Shown here piece after piece: positions 57,623 to 59,786 of a stretch of 64,000 nt of DNA. A program made the translations under genes and the position numbers. Origin of the DNA: an uncultured Anaerolineales bacterium (GTDB lineage: Bacteria; Chloroflexota; Anaerolineae; Aggregatilineales; Aggregatilineaceae); contig CAKZOB010000041.1 of NCBI GenBank assembly GCA_937135955.1, positions 62,001-126,000 on the forward strand, written 5' to 3'. Numbering within the stretch: position 1 is the stretch's first letter; the number at the start of each line of letters is the position of its first letter. The notes beneath the pieces were generated by a model. That model was not told the DNA's origin, did not search any database, and was given only the letters and a program-made list of their open reading frames with translations.

Positions 57623-59434
57623 CTATGCGTTTCGCCTGGGCAGGCTCTCCACTTCGCGCGGCTGACCCAGGCGGGCGCGTTCCTCGTCCACCAGGGACAG
57701 CTCCAGTTTGCGGAAGAGCGGCTGCGGGTCGCGCAGGGCCTGCCCCACCGGCAGACGGCTCGGCTCCCAGCGCCCCACCACGCGCCCGTCGGTGTGATAG
57801 GTCAGGGCCTCGTGTGCTCGCTCGCTCTCCTGGAACGTTTCGATGCGCTGTTCGCCGAAGAGTGTTCCCTCGTAACCCAGGTACTCATGCACCCGCTGCG
57901 AGGTGAAGGGCAGGAACGGCGCGAACAGCGTCTTGAGATTGTCAATGCAGCGCAGCGCCGTGTAGATGGTCGTCGCGGCTGCCGCGCGATCCTGCTCGAT
58001 GACCTTGAACCAGGGTGCGCGATCCAGATACCCGTTGACCTCGCGGGCCAGGGCCATCGTCTCGCTGAGGGCATCGCGCAGGCGCACCGCCGCCAGCAAT
58101 TGCCCGACCGTCTCGAAGCCGCCCTCGACCTTGCTGAGAATCTCGCGGTCTATGTCCCGCAGTTCGCCGGGGTCGGGCACTGCGCCGCCGAAGTGCCTGT
58201 GCGCGAACTTAAGCACGCGGTTGACCAGGTTGCCCCAGGCGGCCAGCAGCTCGGTATTGTTGCGCGTGACAAAGCCGTCCCAGCTCCAGTCAGAGTCGCG
58301 CGTTTCGGGGAAGGTCATGGCGATATAGTAGCGAATGGGGTCGGGATCGTAGCGGTCGAGAATGTCCGGCACCCAGATCGCCCAGTTGCGGCTCTTGGAG
58401 AACTGCTGCCCTTCAATGTTCATGAACTCGTTGGCGGGCACGTCGTAGGGCAGCGAGATGGGGCCATCGCCGTCGGAGGCATACAGCCCATCAATGCCCA
58501 TCAACTCCGCTGGCCAGATGATGGTGTGGAACTCGATGTTATCTTTGCCGATGAAGTTGTAGATTTTGGCTTCCGGATTGTACCACCAGTGCTTCCAGGC
58601 GTCCGGCTGACCGGTGTTGTGCGCCCATTCGATGCTGGCGGTCAGGTAGCCCATCACCGCCTCGAACCAGACGTACATGCGCTTGTCTTCCCAGCCTGGC
58701 AGCGGGACGGGGATGCCCCAGGCGATGTCGCGCGTGATGGGGCGGCCCTTCAATTCCTCGATCTTGTTCAGCGAGACGCGCAACACATTCGGACGCCATT
58801 GCTCAGCCTTGCGCGGGTCCGAAAGATAGGCGCGCAGCCGGTCTATGAAGGCGGGCAGGTTGAGGAAGTAGTGCTCCGTCTCGCGGACGACGGGGATGCT
58901 GCCATCGGTCTTGCTGCGCGGATTGATCAGGTCGAGCGCGTCGAGCAGACTGCCGCAGTTGTCGCACTGATCGCCGCGCGCGCTGGTGTAGCCGCAGATC
59001 GGGCAGGTGCCCTCCACGTAGCGGTCGGGCAGGAAGCGCTTTTCCGTCTCGCTGTAGAGCAGGCGCTGAGTCTCGGTGTAGAGGTAACCGCGTTCCAGCA
59101 GCGTCCGGAAGATATCCTGGGCGACGCGGTGATGGTTTTCGGTGTCGGTGTGCGTGAACAGGTCGTAGCTGATGCCAATACGCTGCTGCGTGATCAGGAA
59201 GCGGTGATGGTAGTGCTCGAAGACCTCGCGGGGCGACAGGCCCAGCCGGTCGGCCTCGACCGTGATCGGCGTGCCGTGCGCGTCCGATCCGCTGACCATC
59301 AGCACATAATTTCCCTTCAGCCGGTGAAAGCGGGCGAAGATGTCGGCGGGCAGATAGGCCCCGGCCAGGTGACCGGCGTGCAGGTCGCCGTTGGCGTAGG
59401 GCCAGGCTACGGAAACATGGATGTACTCTGGCAT
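57623..59434 (-). CDS. metG: Methionyl-tRNA synthetase
   Basis: This 603-residue class I synthetase charges tRNA-Met. WPYANGDLHAGH with the HIGH-type HAGH at residues 19-22 starts the Rossmann fold. The zinc knuckle is CPICGYTSARGDQCDNCG (about residues 125-142). The KMSKS loop reads QFSKSRN, a tolerated variant. The anticodon-binding helical domain follows, and there is no C-terminal tRNA-binding extension. Start at 59434 follows GGGGAG. Upstream lie a weak local promoter (59475-59503) and, 150 bp back, a terminator preceded by a short Met-containing ORF that looks like an attenuation leader. Confidence 0.95.
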   Translation of the reverse strand: MPEYIHVSVAWPYANGDLHAGHLAGAYLPADIFARFHRLKGNYVLMVSGSDAHGTPITVEADRLGLSPREVFEHYHHRFLITQQRIGISYDLFTHTDTENHHRVAQDIFRTLLERGYLYTETQRLLYSETEKRFLPDRYVEGTCPICGYTSARGDQCDNCGSLLDALDLINPRSKTDGSIPVVRETEHYFLNLPAFIDRLRAYLSDPRKAEQWRPNVLRVSLNKIEELKGRPITRDIAWGIPVPLPGWEDKRMYVWFEAVMGYLTASIEWAHNTGQPDAWKHWWYNPEAKIYNFIGKDNIEFHTIIWPAELMGIDGLYASDGDGPISLPYDVPANEFMNIEGQQFSKSRNWAIWVPDILDRYDPDPIRYYIAMTFPETRDSDWSWDGFVTRNNTELLAAWGNLVNRVLKFAHRHFGGAVPDPGELRDIDREILSKVEGGFETVGQLLAAVRLRDALSETMALAREVNGYLDRAPWFKVIEQDRAAAATTIYTALRCIDNLKTLFAPFLPFTSQRVHEYLGYEGTLFGEQRIETFQESERAHEALTYHTDGRVVGRWEPSRLPVGQALRDPQPLFRKLELSLVDEERARLGQPREVESLPRRNA

Positions 59435-59474
59435 GGTCTCCCCTTTTCCTGTGTGCGGTCTGCTGACCGGCGAA

Positions 59475-59503
59475 CATTGTAACAGGCCGCCCAATGGCGA
59501 ACA
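59475..59503 (-). promoter_or_regulatory. Possible internal promoter of metG
   Basis: On the minus strand TTGTTC, 17-bp spacer and TACAAT precede the metG start by about 40 bp. If used, metG has a basal transcript that bypasses the upstream terminator. Confidence 0.45.
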
Positions 59504-59583
59504 ACGGCGGGGCGATGAGTCTGGAATTTTGGGTGACGAGTTTGCAGCAAAGGCGCTCCTTGGTCGCTACTCCGCGCTCCTCC

Positions 59584-59617
59584 AAAAACAAAAACCGCCG
59601 AAGGGTCTTCGACGGTT
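59584..59617 (-). terminator. Intrinsic terminator between leader ORF and metG
   Basis: Minus strand: AACCGTCGAAG, loop ACC, CTTCGGCGGTT (11 pairs, one U-G wobble) followed by TTTTTGTTTTT. The whole 5' arm can pair instead with a segment of the leader ORF (59659-59681). Confidence 0.88.
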
Positions 59618-59695
59618 GGCCTGCCGTGGTCTGTGGGCGAGAGCGCTAGGCACGCGCCCCACGCCGTCGCCGGGAAAACCCTGACCACGGCAGGC
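59603..59695 (-). promoter_or_regulatory. Putative transcription attenuator of metG (competing RNA arms)
   Basis: Arm A (GCCTGCCGTGGTC, 59683-59695) lies inside the leader ORF and is perfectly complementary to A' (59619-59631). Arm B (59659-59681: GGGTTTT, CGACGG, TGG) can pair with B' (59603-59619: CCA, CCGTCG, AAGACCC), giving 7+6+3 pairs. B' is the 5' arm and loop of the terminator. A-A' encloses B, so A-A' and B-B' exclude each other as nested structures. This is the usual logic of leader-peptide attenuation. Confidence 0.55.
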
Positions 59696-59750
59696 TGCGC
59701 ATGCGCATCACGATGCTCCGGGTTTCGTTGACTGTCACGCTCTCGTCCAT
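59646..59750 (-). CDS. Short leader peptide ORF upstream of metG
   Basis: This 34-codon ORF begins MDESVTVNETRSIV, then MRMR, and ends in SRRRRGARA. Its ATG is 7 bases after a TATAGT -10 box, so the transcript would be leaderless or nearly so. Two Met codons in close succession (codons 15 and 17) sit 4 bases before RNA arm A, where a stalled ribosome would cover that arm. It does not resemble a known protein and is too short for a domain. It could instead be a free-standing micro-protein gene with its own terminator. Confidence 0.5.
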   Translation of the reverse strand: MDESVTVNETRSIVMRMRSLPWSGFSRRRRGARA

Positions 59751-59757
59751 GCCTCTA

Positions 59758-59786
59758 ACTATACGGGAGCGGGCGGTGGATGTCAA
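59758..59786 (-). promoter_or_regulatory. Near-consensus sigma70 promoter of the metG leader
   Basis: TTGACA, 17-bp spacer, TATAGT on the minus strand, beginning 21 bp after the end of pyrF. It is the best promoter match in the window (11 of 12 consensus positions). Confidence 0.85.

Follow-up and report, generated by a model that had tools for sequence, protein, structure and literature searches.

The pyrF-metG interval

In the window, by which we mean the whole stretch of 64,000 nucleotides analysed, pyrF and metG lie one after the other on the minus strand, and direct reading of the sequence placed all the features of a putative metG leader in the interval between them (Table 1).

Table 1. 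Positions of the features of the pyrF-metG interval in the window, with one T-box match from elsewhere in the same genome
Feature	Position	Strand	Remarks
pyrF	60631-59807	minus	TIGR02127
Promoter P1, TTGACA-17-TATAGT	59758..59786	minus	TTGACA 59786-59781, 17 nt, TATAGT 59763-59758
Leader ORF, 34 codons, leaderless or nearly so, MDESVTVNETRSIVMRMRSLPWSGFSRRRRGARA	59646..59750	minus	Short counterpart ORFs in relatives
Putative sensor codons Met-Arg-Met (ATG CGC ATG)	59700..59708	minus	Direct reading and Met cluster statistic
Arm A (region 1), GCCTGCCGTGGTC	59683..59695	minus	Partner of A' and of B
B core CGACGG (region 2)	59664..59669	minus	Hairpin partner of A, or partner of the terminator 5' arm
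Arm A', GACCACGGCAGGC	59619..59631	minus	Complementary to A over 13 nt
B', terminator 5' arm (region 3)	59607..59617	minus	Direct reading, terminator call, consensus folding
Intrinsic terminator	59583..59617	minus	Stem 59617-59593, T-rich tail 59592-59583
Promoter P2, TTGTTC-17-TACAAT, extended -10 (TGT)	59476..59504	minus	Downstream of the terminator
Hairpin GGTC-AGCA-GACC	59457-59468	minus	Just after P2, where the metG transcript is expected to begin
metG, methionyl-tRNA synthetase, putatively regulated gene	57623..59434	minus	NCBIfam TIGR00398, 482.7 bits, cut-off 336
T-box match L156, with tRNA-Ala (GGC) gene	103-414 of L156; tRNA-Ala 286-360 (G000:C52, 22985-23059)		E 1.7e-19, below the gathering score

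A promoter scan identified P1 as the sole promoter-like site in 3 kb (11/12 matches, 0.5 expected). Since the leader ATG (59750) follows 7 nt past the end of its -10 box, the transcript is expected to start at or adjoining the ATG, and direct reading thus bears out a preliminary description of this locus, which had proposed a near-consensus promoter starting a message at or next to that codon. The gap between the -10 box and the ATG is 6-7 nt in 37 of the 47 leaders whose promoter scores at least 8 out of 12, which places the predicted start point at the ATG or within a base or so. Because the gap is conserved among relatives, the leaderless start is a conserved trait and not a peculiarity of the window's genome; the preliminary description was right about the geometry but not in regarding it as an added oddity. 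The DNA upstream of P1 varies among relatives, and the promoter, ORF and terminator remain with metG. When the own genome was scanned with a strict leaderless promoter pattern, three sites were obtained, one of which is the metG leader, so there is no sign of many similar attenuators under this pattern.

The second promoter that had been placed between the terminator and metG was confirmed and is conserved in relatives. Its extended -10 element reads TGTTACAAT or TGCTACAAT (59484-59476 in the window, with a 17-nt spacer between TTGTTC and the -10), and one or the other occurs between the terminator and metG in 10 of the 10 window-family loci listed; over all leaders, a strong extended -10 match was observed in 27%, compared with 2% in shuffles. 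At a locus of the same genus (L005, genome G003), P1 and the leader are replaced by repeat-rich DNA and P2 is retained; as this is a draft assembly, the loss of the leader is possibly an artefact. If the assembly is right, L005 is a natural deletion of the putative attenuator. Since P2 is conserved, and is retained in the leader-less L005, metG is probably under dual control by a P1-driven attenuator and P2. The hairpin just after P2 is kept by relatives with other letters (GGTCTGCGGACC, GGTCCACGGGACC), and is perhaps a 5' stabilising element.

Distribution of the leader and clustering of its Met codons

metG was sought in 61 genomes (the own genome, its genus, family and order), its upstream sequence being read wherever the contig extended far enough; 80 further named metG loci were taken from a genome collection, the nearest being that of Anaerolineales bacterium UBA2029. 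The same leader plan was found before metG throughout much of Anaerolineae and in the majority of genomes of the order, and a terminator precedes metG in 90 loci. A metG tree of 74 rows contains a clade of 50 rows (UFBoot 97, SH-aLRT 84) that unites the order with other Anaerolineae, among them records named Ardenticatenales, Thermoflexia and Anaerolineaceae; 38 of these 50 rows have the leader, and no leader was found in the tree's rows for Dehalococcoidia, Chloroflexia, Caldilineales and Actinomycetota. The distribution fits one origin of the leader followed by several losses, a history that we infer only, because the root of the tree is its midpoint. The preliminary description had staked its case on conservation in close relatives, and the ORF, the arms and the terminator are conserved across the order and class. 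A covariance model search was also proposed there. The model, R1, found the metG leader in the own genome and otherwise no more than one weak match (E 0.16), which lies on the opposite strand of the same leader; in 298 genomes of the class it gave few matches, because the leader RNA diverges. Two weak R1 matches, L145 and L146, lay outside the order; L145 was rejected as a metG leader, the match being a terminator unrelated to metG.

The internal Met codons of the window's leader ORF start at 59708 and 59702, codons 14 to 17 reading Val-Met-Arg-Met; both the ORF length and the Met motif had been given correctly before. Codon 14 is GTG in the window and ATG in most relatives of its family (Met-Met-Arg-Met), so that the window leader contains one Met less than is usual in its family. 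Clustering was assessed in 81 non-redundant leaders with a terminator, and the expected counts were taken from dinucleotide shuffles. At least two internal Met codons within 6 codons were found in 66 of the 81 leaders, versus 4.4 expected, and at least three Met in 39, versus 0.3 expected, although these leaders share descent and thus are not 81 independent trials. Arg was the next best residue (66 versus 35 expected), and no other amino acid came near the Met enrichment. The families compared are far apart in sequence; the Met cluster, its position and the terminator persist, whereas the remaining peptide varies, reading VMMRMRxLPWS in the window's family and MMGMMCCEP, MMGMSGLPWS, MMMRNPRW, VMMCKG or MPMRMP in others. 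The conservation of the Met codons in related Chloroflexota that the preliminary description had asked for is therefore present.

As in leader-peptide attenuators, a short ORF with clustered cognate codons (Met, before the gene of its cognate synthetase, metG, TIGR00398) is followed by an intrinsic terminator between the ORF and the gene. The conserved start geometry and the Met cluster are indirect signs that the leader ORF may be translated. In L016, L019 and L062 (family f7 and its kin) the leader and terminator are retained with a single internal Met codon; these leaders are perhaps decaying attenuators.

No Rfam family matched the window at gathering score or the leader at E up to 10. A T-box (RF00230) before metG was rejected on this ground, as were SAM and other Rfam riboswitches at the leader. 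The same genome contains eight T-box matches, four of them over the cut-off and none at metG, and the identifiable genes that follow these matches include trpE, serS, thrS, pheS and a TrpB-like gene. Two matches over the cut-off, L152 and L154, precede a GNAT acetyltransferase-like ORF and a methyltransferase-like ORF, which are not obvious amino-acid genes. The match L156 looks unusual, with a complete tRNA-Ala gene inside it. In Herpetosiphon (L132, L138) metG also follows a terminator, located in the last 100 bases before the gene, and a conserved upstream ORF ends WLWAG(V/I)RLTAGGFMAGLPAN and is not Met-rich; this is possibly another kind of attenuator.

Alternative pairings and computed folding

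Arm A begins 4 nt past the last internal Met codon (59702-59700) and is complementary to A' with zero mismatches, which confirms the perfect 13-nt pairing reported in the preliminary description. The alternative pairing of B with the terminator 5' arm, also described there, exists, but it is short in the window (6 bp, CGACGG 59669-59664 with CCGTCG 59615-59610) and weak in the window's family; the B core reads CGATGG in most relatives. A local A:B hairpin directly behind the Met codons (GCCGUG-stem-loop-GAUGGC) had been missed. A simple motif for it matches 24 loci, against an expected 3% per shuffled region. Relative to the ORF, these matches fall into three reading frames (16, 6 and 2 loci), so the hairpin is conserved at the level of RNA, not of peptide. 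The layout A-B-A'-B'-T permits A:B, A:A', B:B' and the terminator B':T, with A:B and A:A' mutually exclusive. A:B, B:B' and B':T match the classical 1:2, 2:3 and 3:4 order of attenuators, in which region 1 adjoins the sensor codons, and the main competition is likely to be between A:B and B:B', with A:A' as an additional option.

Coevolution of the arms was analysed by alignment-free duplex energies, comparing native partners with partners swapped in from other loci. Arm A binds its own A' at a mean of -18.2 kcal/mol versus -15.1 for swapped A' (0/20000 permutations; also 0/20000 on 20 representatives), and B binds its own B' at -15.3 versus -13.3 kcal/mol (0/20000; 4/20000 on 20 representatives). 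The native pair was within the best 5% of swaps in 29% of loci for A:A' and in 17% for B:B'; some relatives depend on A:A', others on a long B:B' (about 9-11 bp). Within the window's family, the changes in A:A' comprise one full compensation, U-A to C-G, which occurs in the window genome, and two one-sided changes. The compensatory or coevolving changes in both pairs of arms for which the preliminary description had called are thus found.

The leader region is more stably folded than expected (z = -5.25), with 0 of 200 shuffles as stable. By equilibrium folding, L034, L071, L073, L098 and L116, which are the relatives with long B:B', have a terminator probability of 0-0.33 when the ribosome sits on the Met codons and 1.00 when it sits at the stop codon, while the window and its family have a probability near 1.00 for both, the terminator forming in all states computed; such calculations take no account of how fast polymerase moves relative to folding, and these values thus neither prove nor refute the mechanism. 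Before the 3' arm is made, B' in the window's family is paired to the ORF more without a ribosome (probability about 0.4-0.8 in most family members) than with a Met stall. The RNAalifold consensus of the family is B:B' only when the mask covers about 20 nt past the A site; with 13-16 nt masked, it consists of A':B' (4 pairs) and residual A:B. Of the switch proposed in the preliminary description, the Met leader, the terminator and the alternative arms are conserved, but the clean computed B:B' switch appears in relatives only and not in the window's family, where we consider the chances that B:B' is the antiterminator to be even.

A candidate Met-tRNA attenuator and its alternatives

We consider it very probable that the leader is a transcription attenuator of the ribosome-mediated (leader-peptide) kind, which senses charged Met-tRNA and controls metG, a reading supported as strongly as sequence alone allows. 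RNA polymerase would initiate from P1, on the leader ATG or beside it, with a ribosome translating close behind. When Met-tRNA is ample, the ribosome would reach the stop codon and cover region B, so that the terminator (B' with its 3' arm) could form and transcription would end before metG. When Met-tRNA is scarce, the ribosome would stall at the Met cluster and block arm A just downstream, which could then pair with neither B nor A', leaving B free for the terminator 5' arm B'; once B:B' had formed, polymerase would continue into metG and more synthetase would be made when charged tRNA is short. P2, past the terminator, would provide basal transcription of metG. Counting against such an attenuator are the same-genus locus without a leader, the shortness of B:B' in the window, the mutual exclusion of A:B and A:A', and the folding of the window's family, in which the terminator forms wherever the ribosome stands and B' is paired to the ORF less during a Met stall than without a ribosome. 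A further objection is that Met-tRNA is also required for initiation, so that in a severe shortage translation of the leader should cease as well.

A refinement of this attenuator, not exclusive of it, holds that the antiterminator of the window's family is not B:B': free A' would pair with B' (CGGC with GUCG), or A:A' would free B for a pseudoknot with B'. The A':B' pairs of the RNAalifold consensus at 13-16 nt masked, the strong coevolution of A:A' and the position of A' abutting the terminator speak for it, yet four base pairs closing a long loop would compete poorly with a strong terminator, and no A':B' covariation was seen, B' being nearly constant; we regard it as possible but doubtful. 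A further proposal, which we think unlikely, is that of a class-wide leaderless attenuator in which the amino acid being sensed is also the one that translation of the sensor needs in order to begin; A' and P2 would be additions that keep metG expressed when Met-tRNA is too low for the leader to initiate, and the device would thereby tell initiator and elongator Met-tRNA apart.

Other explanations deny the Met codons a role in tRNA sensing. They could reflect the function of an arrest peptide or of a trans-acting leader peptide, as the conserved LPWS and RRWR parts in the window's family might indicate; however, RRWR becomes DDG or DDGR in L006, L019 and L020 by frame shift with the RNA hairpin kept, and this persistence of the hairpin explains the conservation of both parts. 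As outside the window's family mainly Met is shared, we judge such a peptide very unlikely. The Met codons would be incidental if the leader were a metabolite riboswitch (SAM or methionine) or a T-box, and a structured leader with a terminator before an amino-acid gene, in a genome with eight T-box matches elsewhere, would agree with this. Apart from the lack of Rfam matches noted above, sequence and structure vary between families while the Met cluster persists, which is the opposite of an aptamer, and makes this explanation extremely unlikely. The terminator might simply belong to pyrF, the ORF being spurious and metG being read from P2 only, for which the conservation of P2 and its retention without a leader in L005 could be cited. 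Comparison refutes this reading, and we give it practically no credence: the Met cluster is far above chance, and promoter, ORF and terminator stay with metG while the DNA upstream of P1 differs.

The leader-peptide attenuator favoured here resembles known systems in part. In E. coli, pheST is controlled by a leader-peptide attenuator of phenylalanyl-tRNA synthetase, which likewise combines a synthetase gene, a short ORF with cognate codons and a terminator with alternative pairs, but concerns Phe in Proteobacteria and has an ORF that is not leaderless; the two are not known to be related in sequence. T-boxes also regulate synthetase genes, in the same genome before serS, thrS and pheS, but bind uncharged tRNA directly and have no ORF. 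Candidate attenuators of leuS and trpS in Streptomyces (PMC1262725) and a His leader before hisS/hisZ in bacilli (PMC2965389) share with the metG leader the synthetase genes, the runs of cognate codons and discovery by comparison, and differ in amino acid (Leu, Trp, His) and phylum. For the methionine operons of Actinobacteria, no conserved RNA structure upstream is reported (PMC1262725). A transcript start at the ATG of an amino-acid-sensing ORF has a parallel in the leaderless trpL of Sinorhizobium meliloti (PMC7298713), which serves Trp biosynthesis and not a synthetase. PMC13236596, citing Canestrari 2020, describes mycobacterial polycysteine sORFs that are also leaderless and act by translation attenuation; they belong to Cys operons, not to a synthetase gene. 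The open-licence papers searched yielded neither a leader-peptide attenuator for Met or metG nor any in Chloroflexota, in agreement with the preliminary description, whose author knew of no described metG leader of such a form.

If the attenuator is real, the range of amino-acid leader-peptide attenuation would widen to include methionine and Chloroflexota. What sets methionine apart is that initiation on the sensor requires the same amino acid whose shortage is reported. One lineage would then use T-boxes before other synthetase genes and a leader predicted to be translated before metG, and the divergent copies of the metG leader are numerous enough for a study of how such a switch evolves.
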